From contig JAVLUZ010000142.1 of the NCBI GenBank assembly GCA_036768485.1, positions 18,659,735-18,723,734 on the forward strand: a stretch of DNA of 64,000 nucleotides, given 5' to 3'. Positions 8,875-56,414 of this stretch are shown here, piece by piece. The notes below the pieces were generated by a model, which worked only from the letters and a program-made list of their open reading frames with translations, was not told where the DNA came from and did no database searches. Source of the DNA: Mermis nigrescens. Taxonomy: Eukaryota > Nematoda > Enoplea > Mermithida > Mermithidae. The position numbers were made by a program, and so were the translations under genes. How positions within the stretch are numbered: the first letter of the stretch is position 1; each line of letters begins with the position of its first letter.

Positions 8875-9075
8875 GCACTTATTGTAGTATGTCCCAGCAA
8901 TGATTAAATGCCTAAATTGAATTTATAAAGATGGATTAGTGCATTAAAAATGGAAGAATAATAGCCAATTGCCCTCACTACTGATCTGTCAAATTGCAAT
9001 AAATTATATTGTTTTGCTTACTGTTGCCCTTAAGAAAATTACATAACTAGAGAGCTCTTGGATAAATAAAATAGA
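8875..9075 (+). mobile_element. SINE-like fragment
   Basis: GCACTTATTGTAGTATGTCC through AGAGCTCTTGGATAAATAAAATAG matches the body and tail of the fuller copy at 62040-62322. The tail GATAAATAAAAYA also occurs at 10566-10605. The head with the tRNA-like promoter is missing, lost in the gap or truncated. Confidence 0.45.
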
Positions 9076-14485: not shown

Positions 14486-15245
14486 TCTACCGTGTACCAG
14501 TGCTTTTTTTAACAATGTCCGTTTGTACATGCACAAGGATGGTCCCAGAAAGCCTTTGTATACATTTTGTACACGCAAATTTTTGGGTACTATATTATAG
14601 TACAGTAGCGATTTTAGTGTGGTAGAACAGGGTTTTCGATCTTTGATAGTGTAATTTAGCTAATTTATGGGTTTCTGACTCCACTTAAAAATTGTCTCAA
14701 AATGGCGCGGAGCGCCAAAAAATTTGACCTTTTTTCATTCTAAATGCAAATTCTGCCATTTTAAAGATATGTAGGACAAACAATAACTCATTTCGGCGCA
14801 AGGCGCTGAAAATTTTCAGTAATTTTACACCTTTTTACAGTTTTTGTCTTCCCAAAAATTTTTTGTATATTTTGTACACACAAATTTTTGGGTACTAGAA
14901 TATGGTACAGTAGCAATTTTAGTGTGGTAAAAACAGAGTTGTTCGACTTTTGGTAGTGTATGTTGGCTAATTTCTGGGTCTCTAAGGGCAAAAATCACTA
15001 AGAATTGTCTCAAAACGGTGCAAAGCGCCAATAAATTTGACATATTTCCTTTTGAAATGCAATTTCTGTCATTATAAAGATATGTAGAACACACAAATAC
15101 TCATTTCGCGCATAGCGCCAAAAATTTTAGCGAATTTCAGACCTTTTTGCAATTTTTATCTTCACCAAAAATCTTTGTACATGTACAAAGACAGTTCCAA
15201 AAATCTATGTACATTGGGAAAAATCTGCTGAGTATAAAAAACACT
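14486..15245 (+). repeat. Family A repeat block with GGCGCGAAGCGCC-type hairpins
   Basis: Landmarks in order are a TTTGTACATGCACAAGGATGG module, ATTTTTGGGTACTATA, GTAGCGATTTTAGTGTGGTA, and hairpin words at about 14704, 14796, 15018 and 15106, with TTTGTACATGTACAAAGACA near 15174. The same order is found at 2360-2830, 38020-38690 and 55075-56000. The block appears to contain an internal duplication of the unit. It lies within the hAT-like copy. Confidence 0.6.
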
Positions 15246-15378
15246 TTTGTTTACCATTCTGTTTTGTATTAAATAATTGCTTCATGATCGACGTGTTAAC
15301 TTTCTTAAACTTCTGCATCTAATAATGGGAAGAAATCTCTATTTGCTTTTATGTCTACCTTACTTTTACAAATTTAAG

Positions 15379-15768
15379 TGTAATGAAGATAATTTAGCTT
15401 ATAGCTGACTCTTAGTCATATTCAGCGAAACCATTGTATTATGAATATCATCTTTTAGTTAGCCAACTTCGTACAATAAAATGTAGCATCTTATAATAGT
15501 TTTTATGTGGGTTAACCACTTGCTGCTTCGCTTCTTGGAATTAACTGAACAATCGTCATTGCACCGCCCAATCCAAGCTTAATAAAATACCAAGTGATCT
15601 TTGACGTGTTTCTGATTCATGTCGTATTATTTAATGTCGTGTTAGCATTGTTTGTGACCATTTGTCACGATCGTAAACCTAGCTTTGATGTTGTCATCTG
15701 TGTTTGCCTGTCGCCCAACAATATAATAATTAGCTACAGTATTCCTACATGTTGAGAGCAGCCTTACA
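15379..15768 (+). repeat. 5' LTR, internally deleted (390 bp)
   Basis: The first ~165 bp match 22736-22905 and the last ~180 bp match 23402-23591, with scattered differences. The intervening ~0.48 kb of the 3' LTR is absent. The joint falls at an AGCTT shared by both sides (CCAAGCTTAATAAAA here; CCAAGCTTTGG and CAGCTTAATAAAA in the 3' copy), suggesting deletion between short direct repeats. AATAAAA at the joint could serve in polyadenylation. Confidence 0.9.
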
Positions 15769-15770
15769 TT

Positions 15771-15792
15771 TGGCGAGCGCGCCAGGGAATCC
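15771..15792 (+). other. Primer binding site
   Basis: TGGCGAGCGCGCCAGGGAAT starts two bases after the 5' LTR. TGGCG is a common PBS start, complementary to a tRNA 3' CCA end. I cannot name the tRNA without a host tRNA set. Confidence 0.65.
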
Positions 15793-15853
15793 AAAATAAT
15801 TATAATAATTTCTGTTTGGGAGGATCGGCGGAGACGGCAATAGGCTGAAGTGG

Positions 15854-16555
15854 TTAGACGTCAGGTGGAGGATGCTTTGCGACATAAACAGCGTATTGTC
15901 GCAGTTGCGTCTCCATGTCATGCATTTGAGTGACAAGCTCGGGTTCGTCCAAGTCAATAGATCATTTTGGACGCGATTTAATAGCAACCGACAGCGGATG
16001 CACAACAAGCCATCCGGTGGCATAAGCTGCAATGGCAACCGCGATAAGAAATATTTGCGTCGATTGACGATGTGCACCGAAATAAAGATGTAGGCACACA
16101 GCTTGAATCACATATTCTAGGAGCGCAGCCTCAGGAATTATAGCAACCCACACAAGTGCCAATGTTGCTACAAGGAGTTGCATGTGGCGCCGTGCAAGGA
16201 TAACGACGGGCACAAAAACCAACGCGCCAAACGCACGCTTCAGATTGTCATGAACAAACTTCGGAAACACTTCGGGGTCGGTGTTAATCCATTTACCAGC
16301 CTTGGTTGCATCAAGATTGTTCTTGTGAACAATGATTAAGATCACAACCAGTACTGTTACGACAATCGCGGCAGGACGCGCGATGTCGCGCGTGACGCAA
16401 CCGAACAAATCATTTACGGTCGCGGTGACAATATCCATGGAGCGGGGACAAATAGACTTGACGCGACGTGCGAATCTCTGCACGCCTGCTTGATAACGCC
16501 GTATCCGCGTCGGACGACAAGGAATAAGAGACAAAGATGAGTTATGCTGTGACAT
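15854..16555 (-). pseudogene. SP24-like virion membrane protein (viral remnant)
   Basis: The ATG is at 16555, 11 nt after the stop of the preceding viral ORF. The first 197 codons are open to TGA at 15962-15964. The same frame then stays open for 35 more codons to TAA at 15854-15856, so the TGA may be a premature stop. The protein has a basic N-terminal ~40 residues, then several hydrophobic segments (one containing AAIVVTVLVVILIIV), a layout and size typical of SP24, the putative virion membrane protein of negeviruses and kitaviruses. The assignment rests on topology and on the neighbouring RdRp. Confidence 0.6.
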
Positions 16556-16566
16556 ATTTATAAAAG

Positions 16567-16998
16567 TTATATAAACACCAATAAAATTAAATTTAAATGG
16601 TCAAATAAATAAATATTGACGTAAAATATTACAAGGGCATTGAAGCAACACACGTATAATGCAAACAAAAAGCTATGATAAATATGCAAATACAATATAT
16701 AATAAAGTAACGGCAATGCAAAATATTGAATATGTGTAGCAAAATAAACAGTAATGTCACAAAACAATAATATAGCGGAATTCACTATTGAGAGAAAGCT
16801 GATGAGATAATGAAGAGCATGTTCTTCATAATATTTCATACGATCGAGAAAGAAAGTCGTGACAGTAGCGAAGGATAGGGAAGCATTACGGGCGTTGTTA
16901 TAAAAGGTGTGAAGAAAGTTCGCGGTAATTCGAAGATCGCGCTGAACACGATGAGTAAGCAAAACTATGGAAGAACCTATATTGTGTGTTAAATTCAA
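16567..16998 (-). CDS. Small hydrophobic viral ORF (143 codons)
   Basis: This open frame lies between the RdRp and SP24-like ORFs in viral order, 221 bp after the RdRp stop. The C-terminal two thirds are strongly hydrophobic with at least three possible membrane segments and many Tyr, Leu and Ile. Nege- and virga-like viruses of arthropods often carry a small membrane-protein ORF upstream of SP24. I recognise no specific family. It has no internal stop, unlike its neighbours, but is not expected to be expressed. Confidence 0.5.
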   Translation of the reverse strand: MNLTHNIGSSIVLLTHRVQRDLRITANFLHTFYNNARNASLSFATVTTFFLDRMKYYEEHALHYLISFLSIVNSAILLFCDITVYFATHIQYFALPLLYYILYLHIYHSFLFALYVCCFNALVIFYVNIYLFDHLNLILLVFI

Positions 16999-17219
16999 GA
17001 ACCTAGTGTAAAATAGTTTTAAATCTTTGCTGACAAAAGAAAGCGAGTTGACAGCAGAAAAATAGGAGGTGTGTATATAATTTTGAGCGCTAGAAAAGAA
17101 AGTAGACGATCATCATTAATCAACATTGAAAACAACAAATGAATCAATAAATTCAAAACAACAAAAATGCAATAAAACTGCATAGTGATTATATATAACT
17201 GCCGAAAATTACATTTTGA

Positions 17220-18360
17220 TTAATCGTTCATAGCAACAAATTTACGATCAAAGTCGATGACGTCTTCGGGCAGAGTGTAAAACAAGGATTCGAAAATCGA
17301 ATCAATGGAATATAAGGACAAAAATAGTAACCAATAGTTTGTAGACAATCTGTATCTCTCGGCGACAGCGTTGCCAAGCAACACGCAGGCGGTGATATTG
17401 TCAAATTGCGATGTATGGTCGCGAAGAGACACACGATAACAAAGTGCGTGTTTGTTATTTGCGATGTCGTGCCTGCCAAGCTTCGTAACGAGCTTAATGG
17501 GGTCAGGAAATACGACCCATCGATTGCCAGATCTTATCAAAAACTTGGAACAGAACATGGGATACTTAAAGGTGAAGAGTTTGGCCTCCAAATTGTAAGT
17601 CAGTGCAAGGTACGTGGACAAATAGGTGGTAGATTTCAATGACAACAAGCATCCATGACTCAGCCTGTGTGGCAACAATGTGTTGGTAAGGCAACCAATC
17701 AGAAACATTGTGTTGCCAAAAAAACGTGCTCGCGTCACCAGACTTACGCTGATAGGGTATAGTAAATTTCAAGGATGATGCAGGATTGCGGATAGACGTG
17801 AAAACATGCGCATTATGCCAGAGTTTAACAAAGAAATCTGGCGCGCCAAAATGGGCCATCCATAGGCACTCAAATTCTAAGGCAACGGCCCCCTGTGATT
17901 TATTGTACTTCGAGATATCAACCTCGAGGTAGGATGTGCCATCCCATACAAGTGAATTGTTGCCAGCAAACAAGCAGAAGGGGTGGCTGTCGAGTTGCGT
18001 CAACCGACGCTCAAAATCTTTGAGCAACATATCCGTCATGATAATAACTGTCTCCTTCAAAACGCGAAGTACTTGATCACGCAACATCTTAAACAACACA
18101 CAGAATATCGCGTTGACAGCTTTAGGATGGTAAACTATGGTCTGGAGTGCGGCATAGGAATCTGTTGCGTCACAAGTTAGTATAGGCTTTGCATTTTGCT
18201 TTATGGCAAACGCATACTCATTCAAAGCAGTCTGATCAATAAGAAATTCGGGCACGATTATTTCAGGCAAAGTTAACGACTGAGTTGAGAGCCAATGCTG
18301 AATGTCAGCGGCAGACAATGACAGCTTGGCGATCATGTAGATTGGAACGAGCTTGGCCTA
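17220..18360 (-). pseudogene. Nege/virga-like RNA-dependent RNA polymerase, truncated and broken
   Basis: The first frame (18336-17708) has VDISKYNKSQG (motif A) and RKSGDAST (start of motif B). A run of seven T residues near 17722 separates it from the second frame (17738-17220), which continues with FFGNT, then YPMFCSKFLI and VFPDPIKLVTKLGR, as in alphavirus-like polymerases of the virga/nege/kita group. The C-terminus ends at TAA 17220-17222. The GDD of motif C is not present in either frame at the expected place (about 17640-17660), where the second frame shows HGCLL. A stop lies eight codons before the first Met, so the upstream part of the polymerase is lost. It cannot be functional. 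Confidence 0.88.
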
Positions 18361-18365
18361 CCTGT

Positions 18366-18708
18366 TGGCCACTGATTTAGTCGGAGATAGTCAACTTTTA
18401 TTTTTTCAAACAAGCGCTCATTGCTGCATTTTGTTTTCAACAAAAAATTTATTGCTTCGTATATTGTGGAATTCACATAATTCGGTTAACAAAAATTTGT
18501 ATTTGTTTCTAGTTTGAATAGCTTGCTGACAGGACGTGAATTTTGTTATTTGGATTATTTTGCAATAATTCGTTTATTGGGCTTCTAATTATTTAGCAAT
18601 TTTGACAAGTATTTCTTAGATAAGACGGATATTCGTCACAAAGAATAAAATAAATTTAGCGATAATTGCCTTGCGGAAGAATTTAACGCAATTTGTAAGA
18701 GTACGGAA
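18366..18708. other. AT-rich leader between viral block and gag
   Basis: No reading frame of note. It presumably belongs to the 5' untranslated leader of the retrotransposon, displaced from the PBS by the viral block. The junction with viral sequence lies near 18340-18400 and cannot be fixed exactly. Confidence 0.4.
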
Positions 18709-18768
18709 TTGTTAAATTTAGAGCAGTTTATTCGTCAAACGCGTAGATCGAGCTACACAAATCCAGTA

Positions 18769-19855
18769 ATGGCGGATCAATTGAATGTGATTCAAAATAT
18801 ATTAGAGGAGACAGTTACGCAGGTACGTGAATTATACACAGGACGTCCTATTTCACAAATAAATTTTTCGCTTAATCATTTTTCAGGCAAAACAAATGAC
18901 ATGAATTGGTCTGAATGGGAAAAACGTTTTTCACGAATTTCTGTTTTTTCTGGGGCAAATGAACTAACTAGAAAAATAGCATTGCTCTCTGTTTACTTAA
19001 AAGGGTCAGCCTTATCATTTTTTAATTCATTAGAACAAATAAATCCACCTTTAAATGATTGGGAATTGTGGTCAAATGAATTTTTGAACCGAATTTCCTG
19101 ATAATAGACAAATTGATATTAAATATGAGGAGTTGGTAGGACGCTCAACAGCGTGTTGGTGAAACTGTAGTGGAATTTGCATCTGCAATACGTTATTTAG
19201 GTAAACGTGCATTTCCTGCGTGGAATGGAGTTGATAGCACGGATGTTATAATGAAAAATCATTTTGTAACTTGCTTATTACCTAATATCAGACGTTGGGT
19301 GCAAAATGCTGAACCAAATTCTTTCGAAAATGCTGTAAATGAAGCTCAAAAACAGGAATTACGTGAAAAGCAAGCAGCAGAGAGTAATTTATCTGTTCGT
19401 AGTTTGCGATTAGGGAGTGATACCGATTTTGTTGATAATTTTTTGCAGCACGTTAACGTGGCAAGTATCAGAGATGAATTTCCACCCGTAAATAGAGACC
19501 GTTTTGACCAATTTTCGCATTCAAATAATGTGGGATCGTTTCAGACAAGAAATTTTCGAAATGAAAGATTTAATAATAGGGGGTAAGTAGAAATTGTTCA
19601 GCGGATGATCGCAATAATAGGAATTTTTGGCCTCAACGAGGTAGTTTAGGTTATGCGCAGCCGGCATTTTGAAACAACTATACGTATAATTCTGAACAAA
19701 CTCATGATGGGGTTATAATCTGTGATTACTGTGGTCTTGTCGGGCACCACCGCATGACCTGCCATCAGAGGTACAACGATAGTCAGCAAACACAGCAATA
19801 CTCGAGTGCCACGCGTTATGGCCAGCGTGGAGGCCCACCGGGAGGATCGGTGCAT
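18769..19855 (+). pseudogene. Ty3/gypsy-like Gag remnant with CCHC zinc knuckle
   Basis: ATG 18769 lies in a frame open from 18709 to 19101. It contains WSEWEKRFSRI and KGSALSFFNSL, typical of retrotransposon capsid. After shifts near 19100 and 19140, a second frame to 19586 has QRVGETVVEFASAIRYL and FENAVNEAQKQELREKQA, as expected for the Gag C-terminal half. A third piece at about 19719-19775 has CDYCGLVGHHRMTC, a C-X2-C-X4-H-X4-C knuckle. The total length would suit Ty3/gypsy Gag. At least three frame breaks are present. Confidence 0.8.
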
Positions 19856-19859
19856 CCTC

Positions 19860-20640
19860 AGCAGGGTGTTTCGAGAAGGCGTGATTTTGGGGTCATTCAG
19901 CCCAGTTCACGTTCTGCCAATAGCTATTTTTCTTCTGTTTTTGAAGGCTCTGGGGAGACTGAATGCCCTGCAGGTACTTTTGATTTGCAAAACGTAAGTT
20001 GTAATGAAATTTACGAAAATTGTAAGAATGTGCAAATTAAACATTTGGATTTTGATCCATTTAATTGCGATGATGCAGAGGTTGCTCATTTTTATGAGGA
20101 TGTCCCTACCCCCAGTAGTCGAGTACGTATGGCCCTTGGTAATTTATGCTTTGATAAATCGCGCCTTAATTTACGACGGACGGAAGGGACATCCAGATTT
20201 TCAAATTATGGAACTTCTAAAGGATCGGAAAAATTTTACCCATGTTTTCAGCTTTCGGCACAAGGATTATTGCTCATTCTCTGGGCAAGCCTTGTTTTTA
20301 GAAGTATAATCCGATACCTAAATTTTAATTTATGGGCCATACGATATTTTAAAGCTGCAGCATTCTTTGAAATGGCGCGTATAATTTATTTACTGAAGTT
20401 GAAGTCGTGACTAAATTTATTTTTGTCAGATGTTATGCCGAAATGCCAGGATTTCACGATTAATGTCTTACACATACTACAGGCTTCACAGTTGTCTGAT
20501 CTAGCTCAATCGGATGCGAAAGACTTTATTAGGCCGAGGGGAACTCGCCCTACTAGCCAACGCGAAGCCGATGCTACAGACATGGATTATGGATTTACTC
20601 ACGGAGAAGACTTCACACTGTTGGACTGTATAATCATGTT
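19860..20640 (+). pseudogene. Gag-pol linker remnant, unassigned
   Basis: A frame open to 20410 continues from the zinc-knuckle region with acidic and serine-rich sequence. Another frame runs from 20423 towards the protease remnant. I see no domain signature. Position between knuckle and protease argues for retrotransposon linker sequence. Confidence 0.4.
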
Positions 20641-20644
20641 TACG

Positions 20645-20830
20645 GTAATTAGTATAAAAATGTCTATGGTAAACTTGGTTTCTAGCTTAAATGGAAAAGT
20701 TGTGGATATAATATTTATATTATTGTGGGAGCCAGGTTAGATTTATCAAAGAAAACGACTTGTTAAATATTCAAATTCGGTCATCTTTAGTAGAAGTAAT
20801 TCACAATTCACGAAATCATAATTTGAATTT
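20645..20830 (+). pseudogene. Aspartic protease remnant of the retrotransposon
   Basis: SSLNGKVVDI precedes a frame shift and then CGSQVRFIKENDLLN, which matches the start of a retropepsin around the catalytic D-S/T-G. Here the catalytic position is altered (YCGSQ), so it is inactive as read. It lies where protease is expected, after the CCHC knuckle. Confidence 0.55.
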
Positions 20831-22722
20831 AACATAGATACACGGCCTATTTTTCCTCATTTTAGCTTCGAAGGTTTCTTTTCACTAGATTCATACCTAC
20901 CCAGCTCATTTGCTTATTAGTTGCGCATCATTGAAAGACCAAAATACTCCAGTTGGAAGGAATAATTATTAATTTAATTTATCATTATTTATCTCGTCAT
21001 ATGATTTACTGGTTCGACAAAATTCTTAGTAATTGAAACCTATTTAAATAGGTCGATTTTCGGAAGAATTTAGCGGACGGATTTGTCATATTATCTACAG
21101 ACTATTATAAACTTGCTCTCGCACATTAGTTAGCTTTTCAGGATTATTTGGGTACAACCGACCTTATCTTATTCAGTAGACAGTCTTTATATTATCCTAT
21201 ATCAAAACAAAAATGGATTTATTAATTAATGATGCATTTTAAAGACTGATCGATAGTCATTAATTTGCTTAACTCGATCAGCTAATTGATTCATATAGTT
21301 TTGCGGTGTAAAGGGATGACCTAAACATTTCTGATTCGATATTTATATAACGCATTTGTTTGTTCGGACTCATCGAAGCTCTAATTCTACAATTTTAATC
21401 CAATATTCTATTAATTTAATGATGCTGAATTATCATATCCTTAACTTAAAAAAATATTAAATTTTTCAAGCCATGTAATCTTTAATTATTAACGAATCTG
21501 GGTTAGTTAATTATTTTGCTGAAATACTACATTTTCTGGGAGTGCATCCAGCTTTTCGGATAAAATCTTGGGACAATTCCAAATCGGTCTTAATTATTTT
21601 TTTTACATTCAACTATTTGAATTTGAGTCGACAAATGCTATGCGTTAGTCGATTGCAATAATTTTCCAATGAAATTAATCTAAAACTAGAGGATGGCTTG
21701 CATCCTGCATCATGAGATGAGTGGTATCACTTTTCATCCAACATTTTCTGTTACTTATTTGTTATGCTTTATTTTTATTTCTTTTAATTTTTCTCACTAC
21801 ATTCTTTCAGTCTTTTCAATTACTTACCATTTCCATTAATCTTATTCTTTTCACTTTAATTAATTTTAACTTAATTAATTTTATTTTTACATTATTATTA
21901 TTGTAATTCAATTTACTTCAAATAATTTCTCTTTATTTAATTAACATTGGGGATGCTGGAGCATAAATACCATTTTTCACAATATACAATATTTTCCTTA
22001 AATTTTCATACACTTCCCGGGTACCCCTTAAAACTACAAATATAACTTTTATTCTACTTCAAATTTTAAATAACTTCTATTCTATCCTATTTGTTCTTCT
22101 GTGCTTATTGTTGTCTGTACGATTTTTCTTAAAATTAAATGTGTTAGCAACCGTCCTCTGTATTTGCTAAAATATAATTATTTTGATTGAGTATATATAG
22201 GTACATTTTGTAAATTTAATGTTTGCGTTATCTGTTTGAAGTGATGGTTAACAGCGGGGCATCCTGCTAATGTTCCTTGACCATTAGTGGGAAGGCGACT
22301 ACAAAAAAAAGAATGACTCAAACATTGCTCACAACATCATAGGATAATTTCCAGGCACCAACATTAACAGACAATCCAACAGCAGCATCTACTCGTTCGA
22401 TTAACTTTATATACTATTCAATTCATTTTAACTTGGGTTTTCCCAATTACCAATTCGTTTGAAACAATTTTGATTGGCTCAACAATCTAAACTCTCCGGA
22501 TCATCCGAACGGACCGTCATTGACTTCGTCAGTCTAATTCGTTAGAGCTAACGTTATGACGTCTTTTTGGTTCGCCAATGTTCTTTATTTCTTCATTACA
22601 CGTTCTCGAATAATTCAATAAGGGCATTCCTTATTCTGCTTTTCCAATGACTCGCTATAATATTTGTCCTACCCGAAATTTGATTCTATTTAACTATTGG
22701 TCGTTGGGTGCCGACTTTTTCG
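20831..22722 (+). other. Retrotransposon interior without recognisable pol
   Basis: About 1.9 kb of very AT-rich sequence, far too short for RT, RNase H and integrase. I see no YxDD or integrase signature. Long T- and A-rich runs (21740-21960) suggest decay or replacement of the pol region. Confidence 0.6.
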
Positions 22723-22735
22723 AAGAGTGGGAAAG
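22723..22735 (+). other. Polypurine tract
   Basis: AAGAGTGGGAAAG lies directly before the TG of the 3' LTR, as expected for the plus-strand primer site. Confidence 0.75.
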
Positions 22736-23591
22736 TGTAATGAAGATAATTTAGCTTATAGCTGACTCTTAGTCATATTCAGCGAAACCGTTGTATTATG
22801 AATATCATCTTTTAGTTAGCCAACTTCGTACGATAAAATGTAGCATCTTATAATAGTTTTTATGTGGGTTAACCACTTGCTGCTTCGTTTCTTGGAATTG
22901 ACTGAACAATCCAATCCAAGCTTTGGAATAGGATTGGTGTGCGACGTGGAAATTTATTAATTAAAGAATAATTAAAATAGGGACGAACGTTAACTCGAGA
23001 GAGAGGGAATCCGTCCGAGGGTTGTGGGGGAGAACTTTTATACGAGACAAAGTGCCCCAGGGCCCGAGAGAAGTTGTGCATTTTTAGATATTTTAAGAGT
23101 TTGAGTTTGTATGTTTGTTTGCTAAACGGAAATGGTAGATTAATGACCCCACGAGCATTTGAAGGCAGCGTGTCTTTGTTCTGACTAGCTTTCAAAGAGT
23201 TCATGTGCAATTATGAGACTTGAAATGGATGTTGAAGGTGTGTTATGACAGAGAGTTTGGATTTGATGTATGTCTTCCGAAATCGTGAGGATTGAAATAA
23301 TCTGATAATAAAGAGTTAAAATAATAGCCTAAGGGTACGAATAGAATATTATGTATGTATTTATTGTATATACTTTTATGCTAATTAAATTCTGTTACAG
23401 CTTAATAAAATACCACGTGATCTTTGACGTGTTTCTGATTCATGTCGTATTATTTAATGTCGTGTTAGCATTGTTTGTGAGCATTTGTCACAATCATAAA
23501 CCTAGCTTTGGTGTTGTCATCTGTGTTTGCCTGTTGCCCAACAGTATAATAATTAGCTACAGTATTCCTACACGTTGAGAGCAGCCTTACA
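22736..23591 (+). repeat. 3' LTR (856 bp)
   Basis: TGTAATGAAG to GCAGCCTTACA with TGTAA/TTACA inverted termini. It is the full-length form. About 0.48 kb (roughly 22915-23400) is missing from the 5' LTR, while the shared parts differ by scattered substitutions, indicating an old insertion. Confidence 0.9.
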
Positions 23592-23697
23592 TAAGTATCA
23601 ACATGAAAATTAGGAATTAATCAATTAATTGTTTTCATAATTCTCAAGAATTCCAGGCTTTATTCCTAATAATACATTATATTTTTTATATATTCAG

Positions 23698-34127: not shown

Positions 34128-37100
34128 CTGCAAAGCGCGCTGACATTATTCAACAATTTTCTCATCATTCAACAATTACAAAAATTCAGCAACATTCGTG
34201 TTCTCTAGGGGGTGGGGGATTGATGCAGTTCCTAAGAATCCGTAGAAAAGGCGTTGCCTTAAAACTTTAACTATTTGTTTGCTAAAAAGCGTCAAATTTT
34301 CGGCGCATCGCACCACGTACCTCTTTTTTTGGCTGCATTTTGTTGAATTTAATCGAATTTTTCTAATACTTTTCGTGACAAGCCGTATATATCCGATACA
34401 AACAGGTGCGATGCAGATGGCCGACGCGTGTCCACCGTTTTTTTAGTCCAGAAAGGGTACTTTAAAATTTAAAAGAGTAGATTTCTCACGCAGTGCATGT
34501 CTGGACGTAATCAAGGTCAGGGTCGGCAGGGTGGTGTCCACCATACGTGGGCAGCCCCGAAATTCTAGAAGGTGGGGTGCAAGATTTTCCGAAGGTTAAA
34601 AAATGGCCTTAAAAATGGTGGTACGGCAAAAAACACCATTTTTCAACGTTTCTCATCGAAAACTATCCATTGGCGTCAAAAAATTGCGAAAAAAGCAAAA
34701 AATTTAATAATTGAATTCTGGGTGGTATTTTGGTTTTGGGGGGCGGGTATTTTGGTTTCCCGGGGGTGCATACCCACCAACCTTTCCACGCCCAGGTGTG
34801 GTGTCCACACGTAGGCGTGGGGATATGCATGCCCTAGAAGTTCGAATATCCCCTGGAAACCGAAACACCACACCCCAGAAATCAATTTTTAAAAATTTTT
34901 CTTTTTTTTCGCAATTTTTTGATGCCAATTGATAGTGCTCGATGAGAAACGTTGAAAAACAGAGTTTTTTCCGCCATACCACTATGTTTTAAGACCATTT
35001 TTTGACCTTTGCATCCCGCCGAGAATTCCGGTGCTGCCCACCTATGGTGGTGTCACGACAAAATGTCCCCAGACAAAAAATCGCCAACAAAACGCCCCTT
35101 GACAAAACGTCCCGGAGAAACCGTCCCCAACAGAACTTCCTTCAGCAGAACACCCCGGCAAAGACGACCCTAAGACGGAAGATACCCAGCTAAAAACGTC
35201 AGAAAAACGTTCCCCATGAAAAACAGTGGCGTAGCTATGAAAGGAATTGGGGGGACTGTCCTCCTAATTTCGGAAGTATGAATATTTTTTCACCAGGGTC
35301 CCCAAAAGGAAAAAATTGAAGATATTTAAAATGTATCAGGAAGACCGCTGGAACAGATTAAGCGCACTTTTTGAGCTACTAATAAGCCCGAAATTCTTGG
35401 GCGCTTCGCGCCATATTTACTTGCATACAACATACTTGTTTCAATATGGTTAGAATCAAATTATGTTTTTTTTTAATTTTTTCTTCGCCAAAGTGTAGAT
35501 CTCGTCGCGAAAAGTTCAAAACCAACGTTATTCTTGCATATCCATTAATAGTTGCTGAGGTATCCAACTTTTAAATTTTGGCTCCCCTCCAAATCAGAAG
35601 GCCAGCTACGCCACTGATGATAAAAAGTTCCCACATATTATTATTTTGTTGAATAATCAGGATCAATAAAGGTTACAAGGTAAAATATAAGTCATTTTTA
35701 ATTTTCCATGTTTGCTCGCCTAATATCGTCGTTTCCCATGAACAACGCAGGCTACTTTTGGCTGTTTTTACTCTCCAAATTATGTATTAGTAGTGCATCG
35801 CAAATTTATTCTGCCCGATCGAAGCACACTGAAATTTTTTAATTTTCCACTCTTTATTCGCGTCATTTTTATGCAATCAGTGCCTCCGTTTCCGTAACAG
35901 GCAATATTTCACTTCCTTCTTGTTTGAAGTCTGTGTGCTGTGCATAGGTGGGCGGCACCACAATCTGGGAATGGGGTGCAATATTTTTCGAAGGTAAAAA
36001 ATAGCCTTAAAAATGGTGGTATGCACACATGGGCGTGGGGTTTGGGGGTATGCACCCCCAGAAGTTAAAATACCCCCCCAGAAATCAAACCCCCCAGAAA
36101 ATTTTTTTTTGCTTTTTTAGCAATTTTTGATGTTATTGGATAGTGCTCGATGAAAAACGTCGAAAAATGGTGTTTTTTTCGCCATACAACCACTTTTAAG
36201 ACCATTTTTGGATCTAGTATACAATTTACCCACCAACTTTTTTGTGTAGTGTGTAATATGTAATGTGTTATGTGTAATGTGTATTGCGTAATGTGTCATG
36301 TGTAGTGTGTAATGGGTAATGTGTAAAGTGTTCATATTACACATTATACATTACACATGACACATTAAAATACATTATGGATCGGCTAAAAAACGTTGGT
36401 GGGTAAATTGTATACTAGATCCCCATTTTTTACCTTTGAAAATTTTTTCATCCCCACCCCAGAAATTTTTTCATACCCCCCCCCCCAGAATCGGTGCTGC
36501 CCACCTATGGTGGTATGGCGGAAAAAACCATTTTTCAACGTTTCTTATCGATAACAGGACTTCTCTACGATTTCTTTCGGAGAATTGTAAATCCTAAGGG
36601 TAGGAGGCATGTGAGGGCTAGAAACCTCAGGTGGGAGTCCCCGGCAATTTTTAAAGAAGACAGTAAATGAACTACAATTTTTGGTCAAAAACACAAAAAA
36701 ACAGCCACAGAATTCAAATTTTTGTTAAATCGTAGGGGGTCAAAAATTTTCTCACTCTGGGAGATGGGAGGCGATTAACTATGGGCAAGGGATAACTCAT
36801 CTCACATGTATGCTGGGAGAGATAGGAATATTTTCTTACGAGTGGCGGTGAAAAAATTTTAGCGCGGTTCGTAGGAGTAAGGTGTCTCGCTTATTGATAT
36901 TTCTGAATCGAAAAAAAACAAAACACATTGTTCCTATGAAAAATTATTTAATTCAAAATCAGAAATTTCAGCTGATATGAGCTCACTCTATTACCAAAAA
37001 GTGGCCCATTCCAAATTTATGAGTTATTTACTGCCAAAAATCCATTCTTACCATAACGGCACCAGGACGCGAAGTGTTCGCAGTTTGTAAAAACGACGTT

Positions 37101-40100
37101 GTACTTCCACTCATTCTCCAACTGGCTCACCGCCCGGCTTACGACTTCTAGGGGAGAATAAGGTGGAAGGCTCAAATCCTTAACATTATTTATACGACAC
37201 CGCCTACCCTGCACTACTGTAGCAAGGTCTTCAACTAGAATGCCAACCTTTGAGCCTGTGAAACGGGTTTCTGAATTTATCTTCGTTGACGATTCGAAAA
37301 TTTTTTAAATTTCGAACATTAATTCAAAGTATACAGCTATTCTTTATATTAAAAAGCAGTTATTATTGAAAAAGCAAGGCAACACTAAGCCACAGCCCGT
37401 GCGATTTACACAAAATAAGGGGTTTACGGCGCGGATTCAGAGAAGGGCAGCCGCCTTCTTCATCTGTCGTCAAAAAACAATTAGGCTAAATAGAGAATAA
37501 TAGGTATTTTTTGATAATTTCAGCAATTTTTTATCATAATTTTTCAATTTTTCCGGCGCTTCACGCCGAATCGTACTCATTAACAGTGGCGGATCTAGGA
37601 TTTTCCTGAGGGGGCGATATCCCAAATTTTCCAAAAACAGTCAAAAATTGGTCCAAAAATTTGCCCTTAAGGCGCGAAACAGCGTTTTTTGGTGTTTTAC
37701 ATTGTATACTTTAACATAAAATCACTTTTGACGACAATATTCTTTCTGATAATTTTGAAATTTTAGACAATTTTGTGCGAAAAAATCATTAAATTTCTTT
37801 GACTTAAACAAAAATCTGCGAAGCGCTGGAAAATTTGTGAAGTTAAGGCTGATAGACGTCTAGAAGCATGATTTACTCCTTAATTTTCTGTATTTATAGC
37901 ATTTGATATGCAACATCGAAATATTTAATTGAAAATGGAAGAAAACTATGCAAAAATAGCTGTCTCTGCTGTTAAAATTGTTTTGAAACCTACATGAACT
38001 AGAAACTGGCTTCCACGCAGTGTTTTTTGGTACAAGGTCCGTTTGTACATGCACAAAGATGGTCCCTTGTCCCTAAAAGTCTTTGTACATTTTGTGCGCA
38101 CAAATTTTTGGGTACTACGATATAGTACGGTAGCGACTTATGTCTGTTAAAAACAGAGTTGTTCTACCTTTGGTAGTGTACTTGGATCTTTTGCATTATC
38201 TTACCCCCACGAAATTTATCACTTTATTACACAATGTTATTATTACGATCCTGTAACTGGAGCACATACCCAACGTGTTGAATCCATGTGGGGAAAAGCA
38301 TCCATAAATTCCATAAATTACGTTGTATATTGTTGTGTAAAGTGGTGTTGAAAAATAGGTAATAAATTCCTTGGGGACGAGATAATGCAAAAGATCCGTG
38401 TATTTTTAGCTAATTCTTGGGCTTATGAGGGCAAAAATAATTAAAGAATCGTCATAAAACGGCGCGAAGCGCCGAAAAATTCGACATTTGTCCTTTGGAA
38501 ATGCGATTTCTGCTATTATAAAGATGAATAGGACACAAAATTACTCATTTCGGCGCGAAGCGCCGAAATTTCAGCGAATTTAGATCTTTTTTGCACTTTT
38601 TGTCCTCCCAAAAATCTATGTACATGTACAAAGACGGTTCCGAAGAGTCTTTGTACATCGGGGAAAATCTTTGCCGAATACAAAAAACTGTGCTTCCAGG
38701 TCGCCAAGAAAGTAAATGAATGTCATTAATAGGTATCATCCGGCGCGTAGCGCCGGAAAAATTTGAGAAATTATGGTCACTGACGGCCAAAAATCAGTGC
38801 AAAGTTGCATATCCATTCTTTATCTCGCCAACTATTTTTGGCCAATGAGGGAGCGGCCGCCCCTGCTCCACCATTAAATTCGCCCTTGCTCAATAATGAG
38901 ACTTAACTGACTTTTTAGCGCTTTAAATAGTTTATTCATACGTCAGAGGGGTAGATCATAGGTGCGCAAGATCAAACTTCTAGGGAGGGATGAAAATCGA
39001 AAACTTGTACATAGCTAAGTGCTTCGTAAAAGAATTCTACAGCGAAAAATGATAATATCGCTTTAAAAACATCGATTTCGGGCATTTGTGGCAAATATAT
39101 AACAGCGAAAAGAAATAAATAAGATTTCTGAACTCAACCGTATGTTTTCGAGTCCAAAAAGGCTATATCGCTAGTTTTCTGAGCACAAAAAAGACTACAT
39201 AGCAATCTTTTTCGGGTTAACATGACTATATAGCTATCAGTTTTTTTAAGCTAAGGGGGTTATACCCACACGTGGGCGTGAGGGGATTTGGGGGTATGCA
39301 ACCCCAGAAGTTGGAATGCCCCCAGAAGTTGGAATGCCCCCCTCCCAAAAAGTTGGAATGCCCCCCCCAAAAGTTGGAATGCCCCCCCCCCAAAAGTTGG
39401 AATGCCCCCCAAAGTTGGAATGCCCCCCAGAAATCAAAATACACCCCAGAATTCAATTTTGAATTTTTTTTGCTTTTTTAGCGATTTTTTGATGCCATTG
39501 GATAGTGAATAATGAGAAACGTCGAAAACGGTGTTTTTTCACCATACGATCACTTTTAAGACCATTTTATGATCTTTGAAAATTTTTTCACTCCCCCCCC
39601 AGAAATTCCCAGAACTTCGGTGCTGCCCACCTATGGTTATACCCCTCTTACCCCTCCCGATGCCCATGTATAGAGTAGTTTATGTACAGGACAAAGGTTT
39701 TTTAGTTCTCTTAATGATTTCTTGATTTTTTCTTGGTGCCTTGTAATGATTTCCACATTAATTTTGCGCGTTTTTCACGCAAAATTTTTGAAATTTCCGG
39801 ATCAAAAAGATTCTGTCGATCAAGACACGGCAAAAAAATCGATACTTCAAGCATGCGGATTTTTTGGCAATTTTTTACGCTATTTGAAAAAATTAGGGAT
39901 TCCGCACCCCAGCCAGAAAAGCCTAAATCCGCCACCGGATGGTTAGTTTCGAAAATGTTGATGTTGAGAAACAGACATGAGAAAAATAAGAGAAAATTTT
40001 CCGGAAGGCGAAAAGGCTAAAGTAGATATTTTGTCAAAATTCTACGATGAATTCCTGAAATCATTACCAAAAAGATTAATACGACAGTCCTTGAGCTATT

Positions 40101-48669: not shown

Positions 48670-51290
48670 TCAGATTTTCGCTACTCCAAAGCCCTGGGAA
48701 AAATTATCGCATTTTTGCTGTAATCATGACTGTAAATGTCGTGGGAGTGTAGTTCTATTTCTTAAAACTTCTTTTAATGCTATTCAAATTAATCCGCCAC
48801 CTGCTTTGAAGCTTCGGAATTCTAATAAGCGATATTTTTGATTCTGATAGAAAGATCAGATTTATTTTGATTTACCGGACCCCTGATTTTGACCTAGCTT
48901 GTGCTGAAATTTTATGTAGATGTATTGAATGGACTTGTTCTGTTCCATTCCTTTTGTAATCTTAGATTTTAATTTGGCAAAAATTAATCGGCGGAGAAAT
49001 TCGCTTCCTTCTGATAATCATGATACCCCTGTTCTTTGACACACTTTTCGGGCACTGGTTTTACATCAGTTAAAAAAAGAAAATACTCATGATAATAATA
49101 TACTTGATCTTCTCTTTGCATCTGATCGAATTTGTAATGTAAAAGTTGATATTCTTTTCTAATAGTGACCATAATTCTATTATATTCGATTGTCTTTTGA
49201 TGCCAGTCATGAAATCCTATATCATCTTTTTTCAACTTTCGTGAAGCTGATTTTAATGCTCTAGGTCTTGCAATGTCTCAGATTTCTTGGCCTGATCTTT
49301 TTGATTCCTGTTCTAATGTAAATGATATGTACAATTTGTTTGTTGTAGTGCTTCACTCTTTAATTTACACATTTGTCCCCTTGACTCACCCCAACCCCAG
49401 AAATGTAAATATCCCAAACTAATTAAAAGAATGTTAACTAAGAAAGGTATGCTTTGGAAGAAACATGAAATTTAGTGCTCGACTGATAGAAAAATCAAAT
49501 ATAAATCTTTTTGCGGAAAATTGGATGTTGAAATTAAAAATTTCTCTGCTTCTGAAGAAATTAACCTTCTTTCTGACAAAAGTTTAGAATCCGATTATAA
49601 ATTTGTCAATAATCGCTTGAATAATCATCGCTCTTCCACCTCTTCTTCATGACTACAAAATCGTTTCTGATCCTTTAGAAAAGGTACATTTGTTCAATAA
49701 TTACTTTTCTTCTGTTTTTTCTGTTGATAATAATCATCTTCCTTTTAGATCCGATCACTGGTTTTGCATTTCAAACCACTCATTTTGGCGTGCAATTAGT
49801 TTTAAATCGAATAAAGGTTCTTTTTCTAATGGTCCTGATGGACTCTATCATTTTTTCTTGAAAAAACTTTCAAATCATCTTACTGAGCCTTTAGCAAGTA
49901 TCTTTAATGTTTCTTTTAAGTAGCACTATCCCTAATTTATGGAAATGGGCCAATGTAACTCCTGTCTTTAAAAAAGAGCACAGCCTTAGTGAATGATTAC
50001 AAACCGATATCTATTTCCTGCTCATCAAGTAAAATCAAGGGAAAGTTCAATAAACTCAAAAATTATCGATTTTCTCACTACAAACAGACTCTTATCTTTT
50101 TCTCAGTTTGGTTTTCTAAAATCTAAGTCTTGTGAATTACAACTACTTAAATATAAACACAGCTGGACGGTATCTTTGAGCAATAGGACTCCTGTTGATG
50201 TAGCTTACATCGACTTTTCGAATGCTTTTGATAAAATCCCGTTATCTAAGCTTCCATATAAGCTCTCAAAAATATGGAATAGAAGGTCTACTTTTTAATT
50301 GGCTCATTTCCTTTTTACATGGTCGGTCTCAGCATGTTTGTATTGGCAGTTTTTTCTGACTTCAAGCCTGTTGGCAGTGGTGTCTCCCAAGTTAGTTGTA
50401 TTAGTCCTACTTTATTCTTAATTTTTGTAAATGACCTATGTAGCTTGATCAGATGTAGCAAATTTACCTCTTTGCCTAATGATGTCAAAATCTTTGGTCA
50501 ATCTTCTGATTATCATTTAATAGAAAAAGGTCTGGATAATATTTATACTTGGTCTATTGATTGGTAACTTCCTGTTGCTGTGTAAAAATGTACAGTTTTA
50601 CATCTTGGTAAAAATAATCTCAAAACCTTATATTTTTTGAATAATAAAAATATTCCAAATGACATTAGTTCCGCTAGTGATCTGAGTGTTCATTTTTCCC
50701 ATAATCTCAATTGTAAGGAACATTTAAATCAAATGATTAAAAAAAGCTTCTTTCTCATTGTTTTCTAATACACGACGCTTTTTCTTTCTCGTGATAAAGA
50801 TATTTTAGTTAAGGCCTATACTACTTATGTAAGACCCATGCTCAAATTTTCTATTTCTGTATGGAATCCATATTACGCAAATGATATAAATTGTCTTGAA
50901 AACGTTTAAGGTAAATTTTACTAAACGCCTTTTTGGTTTTCATAGCAATTTCCCATATTGAACGCCTGAAGCTTCCTAACTCTACCTTCTTTGAAACTTT
51001 GTCGTCTTCACATATGTCTATGTCTCATGTATCAAATTATTAACGGTTTACCTTGTATTGATGCTAATGAATTTTTCATTTTCAGTTCCAGCATAATTGA
51101 TCTGAAAACCGTCGTAAATTTATGGTACCAGTTGTCCTTTCCAATGCTCACCTCTACTACTTTTCCGAGCGCTACCTGAAAATTTGGAATTCCTTACCTG
51201 ATCAAGTAGTACCGCTTCTCCTCCACGTTTGTTCGTTCAAGAATGAGCTCCTAAACATTCATTTTACAATTTTATCATTGGGGCATACCT
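48670..51290 (+). pseudogene. Jockey/CR1-like LINE, degenerate
   Basis: Endonuclease remnants: RFILIYRTPDFD, LDFNLAKI and DHNSIIF (48850-49200). Reverse transcriptase remnants: NNYFSSVFS and GPDGLYHFFLKKLS (49690-49923), AYIDFSNAFDKI (motif A, about 50205-50240), GSGVSQVSCISPTLFLIFVNDL (motif B region, about 50375-50440) and NDVKIF in place of the usual ADD motif C. C-terminal pieces RLHICLCLMYQIINGL and IWNSLPDQVV follow to about 51290. Many stops and frameshifts make it inactive. No 5' ORF1 was found; a 5' truncation is likely. Confidence 0.85.
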
Positions 51291-55074: not shown

Positions 55075-56000
55075 CAGCCTATAATATAGTACAGTAGCTA
55101 TTTTAGTGTGGTAAAACAGGGTTCTCGATCTTTGGTAGTGTATGTCAGCTAATTTCTGGGTTTCTCATGCCGAAAATTACTAAGAATTGGCTCAAAACGG
55201 CGCAATGCGCCGAAAAATTTGGCATTTTTCCATTCTAAATGCAAATTCTGCTGCGCAAAATAGCGTTTTTTTTCGGTGTTTTACATTCTATACTTTTACA
55301 TAAAATCACTTGACGCAATATTTTTTCTAAAAATTTTAAAATGTTAGACAATTTTGTGCGAAAAAATCATTAAATTTCTTTGGCATTAACAAAAATCTGG
55401 TGCGAAACGCCAGAAAATTTGTAAGCATTATTTACTGCTTGATTTCCTGTATTTATAGCATTTGATGCGAAACATCGACATTTTTGATTGAAAATAGAAG
55501 AAAACTATGCAAAAATAGCTGTTAAAATTTTTTTGAAACCTGCATGAACAGAAAATGTCTTCAAGGCAGTGTTTTTCTTTTGTACAAGGTCCGTTTGTAC
55601 ATATACAAAGATAGTCCTTAAAAGTCTTTGTACATTTTGTACACACAAATTTGTGGGTACTATGATATAGTACGGTAGCGACTTTAGTGTCATAAAAAAG
55701 AGTTGTTCGACCTTTGGTAGTGTATTTTGGCTAATTCCTGGTTTTATGAGGGCAAAAATCATTAAGGATCGGATTAAAATGGCGCGAAGCGCCAAAAAAT
55801 TCGACATGCTTCCTTTCGAAATGCGATTTCTGCTATTAAAAAGATATATAGGACATACAATTACTCATTTCAACGGCGCCAAAAATTTTTGCGAATTTTA
55901 GACCTTTTTGCAGATTTTGTCTTCCTGAAAATCTTTTACATCTATACATCTACAAAGACGATCCCGAAAAGTCTTTGTACATCAGATCATCAGGAAAAAT
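55075..56000 (+). repeat. Family A repeat block
   Basis: GGCGCAATGCGCC at 55199, ACAAGGTCCGTTTGTACAT near 55588, GGCGCGAAGCGCC at 55781, and GTACGGTAGCGACTTTAG. The order matches 38020-38690. Minus-strand frames such as 55505-55807 reflect the repeat and resemble the frame at 14825-15094. Confidence 0.6.
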
Positions 56001-56414
56001 CTTTGCCGAATACAAAAACATTGCAAATTGCTTATCCATTCTTTATCTCGCCAAATATTTTTGGCCAATGGAAGGAGTGTCAATATGACCACTAGAGCTG
56101 CACAATTTGTAAATTTTGCTACCCAGATGCCTATAGCATGGTAAGAATCAAATAGACACTCTCTTAAATAAAGGCCATTTTCTGCATAAAACCTGTGCAG
56201 AACAGAAGAAATAGATGCAAAATACGCTTTAGATTGTATGAAGACTAAAAATCGAGCGTTTAAACCGCGTGCTTGGGAATAAGTAGACTCTAATCGTAAT
56301 TTTAAAATTTTTTGCAATTTTGGCTAAAAAAGCGAGGGGGAGAAAAAGGAAAAATCATTCTTATATTTAATTTTGGGGGTCATGTGCCCCCCATATCCCC
56401 CGGATACGGGCCTG

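Follow-up and report, generated by a model that had tools for sequence, protein, structure and literature searches.

A nege/kita-like viral fragment between two primer-binding sites of a Mermis nigrescens LTR retrotransposon, probably captured at plus-strand transfer

The stretch of DNA analysed here (64,000 nucleotides (nt) of the nematode Mermis nigrescens, assembly GCA_036768485.1, contig JAVLUZ010000142.1, positions 18,659,735 to 18,723,734; hereafter the window, its contig being labelled C48) contains a Ty3/gypsy-type long terminal repeat (LTR) retrotransposon, inside which about 2.5 kb derived from a nege/kita-like RNA virus (15789-18325) lie antisense to the element, after its 5' LTR and before gag, and have the viral 3' end at the first of two primer-binding sites (PBS1 and PBS2). 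In the model proposed here, to which we give a probability of roughly 0.8, this block was captured at the plus-strand transfer step of reverse transcription, the strong-stop DNA having been extended on viral RNA and then moved to the minus strand.

An earlier, sequence-only reading of the locus had placed an antisense block of RNA-dependent RNA polymerase (RdRp), membrane open reading frame (ORF) and SP24-like ORF within the LTRs, which is confirmed by the LTR pair, the flanking TAAG and the Pfam matches PF00978 and PF16504, and had the viral 3' end abutting the PBS, as is indeed found, the insert starting at 15789 directly after an 18-nt PBS. The viral fragment had been drawn as far as 18708, which is too far: its right edge lies at 18325/18326 (18337 at most), and from 18338 on the sequence is a leader common to virus-free copies of the element. 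The proposal that the locus is a direct fossil of a chimera between an LTR element and viral RNA is supported by the position of the block between a tRNA-copied and an element-type PBS, while the suggestion that the element later amplified with its viral cargo finds no support so far, as queries with the 3' untranslated region (UTR) and with SP24 match only this locus and a second contig, C401.

The left joint and the tRNA primer

PBS1 is an exact complement of the 3' end of a host tRNA-Arg, which ends at tRNA position 59; the match does not extend to the following position, A58, the nucleotide beside which plus-strand strong-stop DNA is expected to end. A modification at nucleotide 58 could halt plus-strand synthesis (PMC1785368). 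In the genome searched (524 Mb), the pattern of the tRNA 3' end is found at eight places within two mismatches (reversed control: 0), one of which (L050) is the virus-free element L012 described below and was excluded from the ARAGORN input. ARAGORN called a tRNA-Arg(ACG) in five of the seven loci given to it, with L046 exact and L048, L049, L051 and L052 carrying 1-2 mismatches, and the two loci without a gene call (L045 and L047) contain the exact 22 nt of the tRNA 3' end. The tRNA gene L046 has the T-arm CCAGG TTCGATC CCTGG and the acceptor sequence CGCGCTC G, and both the acceptor stem and the T arm are present in its fold, the stability of which is no better than that of shuffles (z -0.63). 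A single query with 15769-15961 matches only this locus and contig C401; a plasmid search with 15771-15860 returned nothing, and neither did Rfam at gathering thresholds or ARAGORN when run on the window.

The native junction in virus-free relatives

The 5' LTR has at least 43 matches in its own genome, and among the loci fetched 14 distinct virus-free ones have a PBS-like sequence after the LTR end. In this count the window and C401 are excluded, the duplicate loci L008/L011, L006/L012 and L018/L028 are merged, and LTR ends without a PBS (including L059), which look like 3' or solo LTRs, are left out; for L033, L035, L036, L039 and L040 no LTR 3' end was obtained. Ten of the 14 (L011, L013, L014, L027, L042, L043, L044, L056, L057, L058) show the native order LTR-TT-PBS-leader, with the 11-nt PBS TGGCGAGCGCG in seven and one or two substitutions in L011, L014 and L027. 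This PBS is directly followed by TAGATTGG in nine loci and by TAGATTCA in L027, and the leader from 18338 onward is 87-93% identical in L011, L013, L014 (to 18551 only), L027, L042, L043 and L044. Because L042, L043, L044, L056, L057 and L058 share an identical LTR end over 257 nt, six of the ten native loci are copies of one young subfamily, which leaves about five independent ones; the LTR of this subfamily is 74% alike to that of the window over the last 157 nt.

In all ten native loci the continuous match to the tRNA complement extends over at most 11 nt. Since none of them has a match beyond base 11, PBS1 seems to owe its seven additional bases to the copying of a tRNA, and they look foreign to the usual leader of the element family.

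Other members of the family depart from this order. L018 and L034 belong to the same LTR family and have a tRNA-like PBS, with no match to the window leader in the stretch fetched, and in L016 (2980-3010) the PBS is joined directly to the equivalent of ~18730, at the start of gag. In L012 (G000:C775:69000-76500, 2536-2600), 29 of 30 nt beside the LTR are complementary to tRNA-Arg and are joined to gag position 19547, which reads as an independent, virus-free failure of plus-strand transfer in which the tRNA was copied past base 58. As the LTRs of L012 are 98.8% identical, its aberrant transfer should be fairly recent; the LTR pairs of L013 and L014 are 91.8% and 92.1% identical. The flanking 4-mers are equal in L014 (TTTT) and unequal in L013 (TACA/TAGG) and L012 (GCAG/GAAG).

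The right joint

Homology to the element restarts at 18326, the 5' edge of PBS2, the first seven bases of which, TTGGCGA, are exact and in the native register, as known from the virus-free copies. Thereafter PBS2 reads TCATG where L013 has GCGCG, followed by TAGATTGG and the leader. The TCATG may stem from the parental PBS after decay, with CpG transitions accounting for two of its three changes, or from the virus; with the last bases of PBS2 possibly viral, the right joint may fall anywhere in 18326-18337. The word TTGGCGA is present on both flanks of the block (15770-15776 and 18326-18332) and is the sole flanking direct repeat of at least 7 nt. Composition change-points fall at 15707-15879 for the left edge and at 18310-18395 for the right one, which is compatible with the joints and too coarse to refine them.

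Just before annealing, plus-strand strong-stop DNA carries a tRNA-exact PBS and minus-strand DNA an element-type one. These are the two sites seen here, and the viral DNA is located between the two partners of plus-strand transfer. The virus, moreover, lies inside one integrated retroelement without a target site duplication of its own and with joints that can be interpreted mechanistically, as in a chimera made by template switching.

Proposed model of capture and its alternatives

In the model favoured here, plus-strand strong-stop DNA, consisting of the LTR and the 18-nt copy of the tRNA-Arg primer, would not have annealed as usual to the PBS complement at the minus-strand 3' end; its own 3' end would have been extended instead on a packaged nege/kita-like (+)RNA, from the 3' UTR over ~2.5 kb towards the RdRp gene. 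Once TTGGCGA had been copied from the virus, the growing end could anneal to the minus-strand PBS complement, following which synthesis would enter the leader and gag, the minus-strand end would copy back over the insert, both LTRs would be completed and integrase would insert the chimeric molecule with a 4-bp duplication. When strong-stop DNA is extended on viral (+)RNA, the antisense orientation follows in a single move. That the two switches took place in this order, that the template was viral (+)RNA and that the enzymes were supplied in trans is what we infer. Such an accident would be more likely if the parental PBS was decayed and normal annealing thereby weaker, and L012 suggests that plus-strand transfer failed at least once more in this family, without a virus. 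The lack of a tRNA copy at PBS2 speaks against a tRNA having primed on the viral RNA itself, a reading that was rejected for this reason.

It has to be noted that several observations weigh against this model. Apart from C401, the closest LTR relative is at most 87% identical among the matches listed; PBS2 differs from the native PBS at 3 of 12 bases, the final ones of which could be viral; and no relative of the 3' UTR was found that would confirm 15789 as the viral end. In L018 the PBS matches the tRNA over 16 nt, and therefore a match longer than 11 nt does occur in one related subfamily; recombination with an L018-like element as the source of the left PBS is unlikely, since L018 leaves the window sequence at base 17. 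The 7-nt microhomology, when taken without its register, is equalled in 389 of 5000 random draws of element windows (apart from a few skipped draws close to the joints), and when the joint regions are shuffled, 120 of 200 replicates share a word of at least 7 nt, so that the length of TTGGCGA is within chance and microhomology alone was set aside as evidence.

The most serious competitor, which accounts for both joints and for the orientation and predicts nearly the same joints, assigns the same step to the opposite strand: the minus strand, at its 3' terminus (the PBS complement), would have been extended on viral (-)RNA up to the 5' end of that RNA and would then have met the strong-stop DNA. 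The minus-strand end TCGCCAA could indeed pair with the viral (-) strand. This alternative nonetheless requires that strand, usually the rarer of the two, predicts a complete native PBS2 rather than the diverged one observed, and should have left, if the virus was polyadenylated, a poly(A) complement by run-off, of which none is seen; we regard it as unlikely, though clearly ahead of the two explanations that follow.

If viral cDNA had entered the PBS later and independently, after the element was already in the genome, TTGGCGA would be a 7-bp target duplication, which would explain why this word stands on both flanks of the block; virus-free copies of the family do exist. These copies are, however, family members at other loci and not an empty form of this one. 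The sequence-only reading had looked to a target duplication of the viral block and to empty-site copies as the mark of such an event; the only candidate duplication is TTGGCGA, itself part of the PBS, and it leaves the extra tRNA bases on the left unexplained. The tRNA complement runs in register for 12 nt past the left TTGGCGA, seven of which are absent from the native PBS, and their presence by chance is estimated at ~4^-7 to 4^-12 under equal base use; with no trace of poly(A) and no flanking repeat beyond TTGGCGA, such an insertion appears very improbable. That the joints are an assembly artefact can be given hardly any weight, as both are present on C48 as well as on C401, with the viral frames broken differently on each.

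Content and affinity of the viral block

The block contains, in the order of the virus, an alphavirus-superfamily RdRp and SP24, the arrangement of a nege/kita-like endogenous viral element (EVE). The RdRp pieces (Table 1) occupy two different frames, i.e. the gene is frameshifted, and the viral block is accordingly a fossil. The SP24-like ORF is open in the window and has three hydrophobic stretches; the small ORF between RdRp and SP24 has two hydrophobic stretches and no Pfam family over the cut-off. A glycoprotein gene of the negevirus type (ORF2) was looked for between RdRp and SP24, and only this ORF of 143-180 amino acids (aa) was found there. The longest viral-sense stretch free of stops has 261 codons; in 300 shuffles the average is 102 and the highest value 277, which makes ORF length alone weak evidence for viral coding and leaves the claim to be carried by the Pfam matches. 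Negevirus genomes measure 9-10 kb (PMC7154061), and with the N-terminal part of the RdRp missing the block amounts to roughly the 3'-terminal quarter of the genome of a nege/kita-like virus.

Searches for relatives gave five for the RdRp among 205 candidate proteins, the nearest named one being P0001, 'ssRNA positive-strand virus sp.', at 44-45% identity to the RdRp piece 17566-18336, and a profile built from six RdRp sequences matches alphavirus nsP4 structures. No relative of SP24 was found among 660 candidate proteins, and IMG/VR, scanned with both SP24 and the RdRp alignment, yielded no relative either. Structure models reached mean pLDDT (predicted local distance difference test) values of 49 and 37, too low for use. 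A scan for runs found no poly(A) trace in the 3' UTR.

Element architecture and age

The two-LTR element spans 15379-23591, its LTRs reading TGTAAT...CCTTACA. The TAAG duplication on both sides, together with the intact LTR ends, shows an integrase-type insertion of the entire molecule, and the LTR pair with its target duplication, the PBS to host tRNA-Arg and the polypurine tract (PPT) are those of a Ty3/gypsy-type LTR retrotransposon, which perhaps belongs to an mdg1-like clade. The two LTRs differ at 12 of 369 compared positions (10 transitions and 2 transversions), a Kimura two-parameter (K2P) distance of 0.033, which at insect-like neutral rates corresponds to a few million years. The gag region of the window (18649-19586) gives Ty3_capsid and SCAN matches below the Pfam cut-off only, and a protein search with the window gag piece gave no homologue (10 candidates); the matching region of the virus-free relative L013 gives Retrotrans_gag at E=2.5e-6, over the cut-off. 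No pol family (reverse transcriptase, RNase H or integrase) was found in the scanned ORFs of the window and in five of the eight listed ORFs of L013, the longest of which has 200 aa (one of the other three overlaps an LTR and two are on the minus strand), in an ORF scan whose sensitivity decayed pol traces could escape. The family is probably gag-bearing and non-autonomous, borrowing its reverse transcriptase and integrase.

The 476-nt insert nested in the 3' LTR starts with TGGAATAGG, ends with TTACA, has GCTT on each side and looks like a solo LTR of another element with a 4-bp target duplication.

Table 1. Features of the element and of the viral block (positions within the window)
Feature	Positions	Strand	Basis
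Target site duplication TAAG, left	15375-15378	.	Exact match to 23592-23595
5' LTR	15379-15768	+	3' LTR halves 97.8% and 95.9% identical
PBS1	15771-15788	+	18/18 complement of host tRNA-Arg(ACG) 3' end with CCA added (gene L046)
Viral 3' UTR (inferred from position)	15789-15961	-	A/T runs all shorter than 5
SP24-like virion membrane protein ORF, 197 aa	15962-16555	-	Pfam PF16504, E=1.8e-23 (15965-16555)
Small membrane ORF, 143 aa (180 aa stop to stop)	16567-16998	-	Between RdRp and SP24
C-terminal RdRp piece	17220-17768	-	RdRP_2 PF00978 (17223-17738), E=2.4e-21 to 2.8e-21, profile 324-420
RdRp piece, N side truncated	17566-18336	-	RdRP_2 PF00978 (17569-18336), E=7.1e-39, profile 125-285
PBS2, element-type PBS	18326-18337	+	9/12 identical to native L013; alignment to L013/L014
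Element leader	18338-18768	+	Runs on from PBS in virus-free copies
Degenerate gag with zinc knuckle	18769-19890 (approximate limits)	+	ORFs 18649-19101, 19140-19586, 19673-20410
PPT AGTGGGAAAG	22726-22735	+	Read from sequence
3' LTR	22736-23591	+	Split by 476-nt nested insert, 22924-23399
Target site duplication TAAG, right	23592-23595	.	Exact match to 15375-15378

The second contig

Contig C401 is collinear with window positions 8875-42599 (~33.7 kb) at 98.8-99.98% identity, with differences of its own, and contains both joints, which makes a misassembly unlikely. On C401, SP24 and the RdRp piece 17566-18336 are each in two frames, and the middle ORF and the RdRp piece 17220-17768 match over their full length in one frame. 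This contig is probably the other haplotype, and it may alternatively be a segmental duplication. The collinearity of C48 and C401 stops at window position 8875 (C401:33729), beyond which rearranged matches mark a structural difference. Other EVEs derived from the same virus may exist elsewhere in the genome.

Other features in the window

An LRAT-domain exon lies at 37020-37304 on the minus strand (Pfam E=4.6e-17), and an RVT_1 fragment at 49993-50295 on the plus strand, below the cut-off (E=2.6e-5), is perhaps a remnant of a long interspersed nuclear element (LINE). A dispersed repeat of several hundred bases is found at 2354-2810, 14499-15182, 38020-38688 and 55079-56018; its copy at 14543-15176, shortly upstream of the 5' LTR, is tandem with a 313-nt period, and the same repeat also flanks L008. 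Two long inverted-repeat pairs are present, one (12478-12740/26125-26387, 87% complementary) enclosing the whole element and the other (57683-57862/59330-59509) being 91% complementary.

Implications and comparison with known systems

The structure of the two joints makes this route of capture testable, as it offers a signature searchable in any genome, namely a duplicated PBS of which one copy is tRNA-exact and longer than the native one. A broader proposal, which we advance only tentatively and would not favour over its negation, is that foreign RNA enters elements of this family repeatedly through failed plus-strand transfer, strong-stop DNA being free to prime elsewhere where the PBS is weak (11 nt) or decayed. 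If so, each captured RNA is expected to have a tRNA copy of 18 to 30 nt at one end and a second PBS at the other, by which such captures could be found and oriented in other genomes. Transcription driven by the LTR would also yield antisense viral RNA.

The capture of non-retroviral RNA viruses by LTR elements is documented (PMC5177903, PMC6797480, PMC5497376), and nege-like EVEs are mentioned in aphids (PMC11978097). For the footprint of a tRNA copy and two PBSs, no earlier report was found among the titles and abstract openings that searches of an open-access library brought up. The evidence for the LTR route given in the accessible parts of the cited work consists of genomic neighbourhood or of hybrid DNA in infected cells; in the window, a single integrated molecule would preserve the capture step base by base, its marks being the end of the tRNA copy at one joint and the minus-strand PBS at the other.

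One of the closest known cases is eBxnv-1 of Bursaphelenchus xylophilus, a nodavirus RdRp inside a Bel/Pao element (PMC5177903), which likewise is a fragment of a non-retroviral (+)RNA virus between LTRs, with PBS and PPT, at one locus, and for which copy-choice in the course of reverse transcription was proposed; it differs in the element and virus involved, and the accessible text describes neither a joint at the resolution of a tRNA copy nor a footprint of plus-strand transfer. AeBunya1 of Aedes aegypti is also a viral integration within a complete LTR element, in that case of the Pao-Bel type, bunyavirus-derived by its name and with joints that the available part of the report does not describe (PMC5497376). 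In Aag2 cells, an EVE of cell fusing agent virus (CFAV) NS2A is flanked by a Ty3/gypsy LTR and gag, and hybrid circular DNAs of Sindbis virus (SINV) or CFAV with retrotransposons are found (PMC6797480). This EVE resembles the window in that the viral piece, captured in reverse transcription, lies between a Ty3/gypsy LTR and gag; it is a flavivirus coding piece, however, and its recombination is called sequence-independent, with no PBS or tRNA footprint given in the accessible text. The insert of cqgypsy_1 from Culex is alike in being RNA-derived and located at the PBS beside the 5' LTR, but its cargo is a dimer of two tRNAs, for which the authors propose insertion by transposition, accompanied by a 26-bp duplication (PMC3286476). 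Finally, nege-like virus sequence has been taken up by retrotransposons of insects as well, mostly LINEs and also as Ty1/copia protein fusions (PMC5563155); in those captures it is the helicase coding domain that is held in an open frame, whereas the window contains an antisense 3' piece of the viral genome positioned at the PBS.

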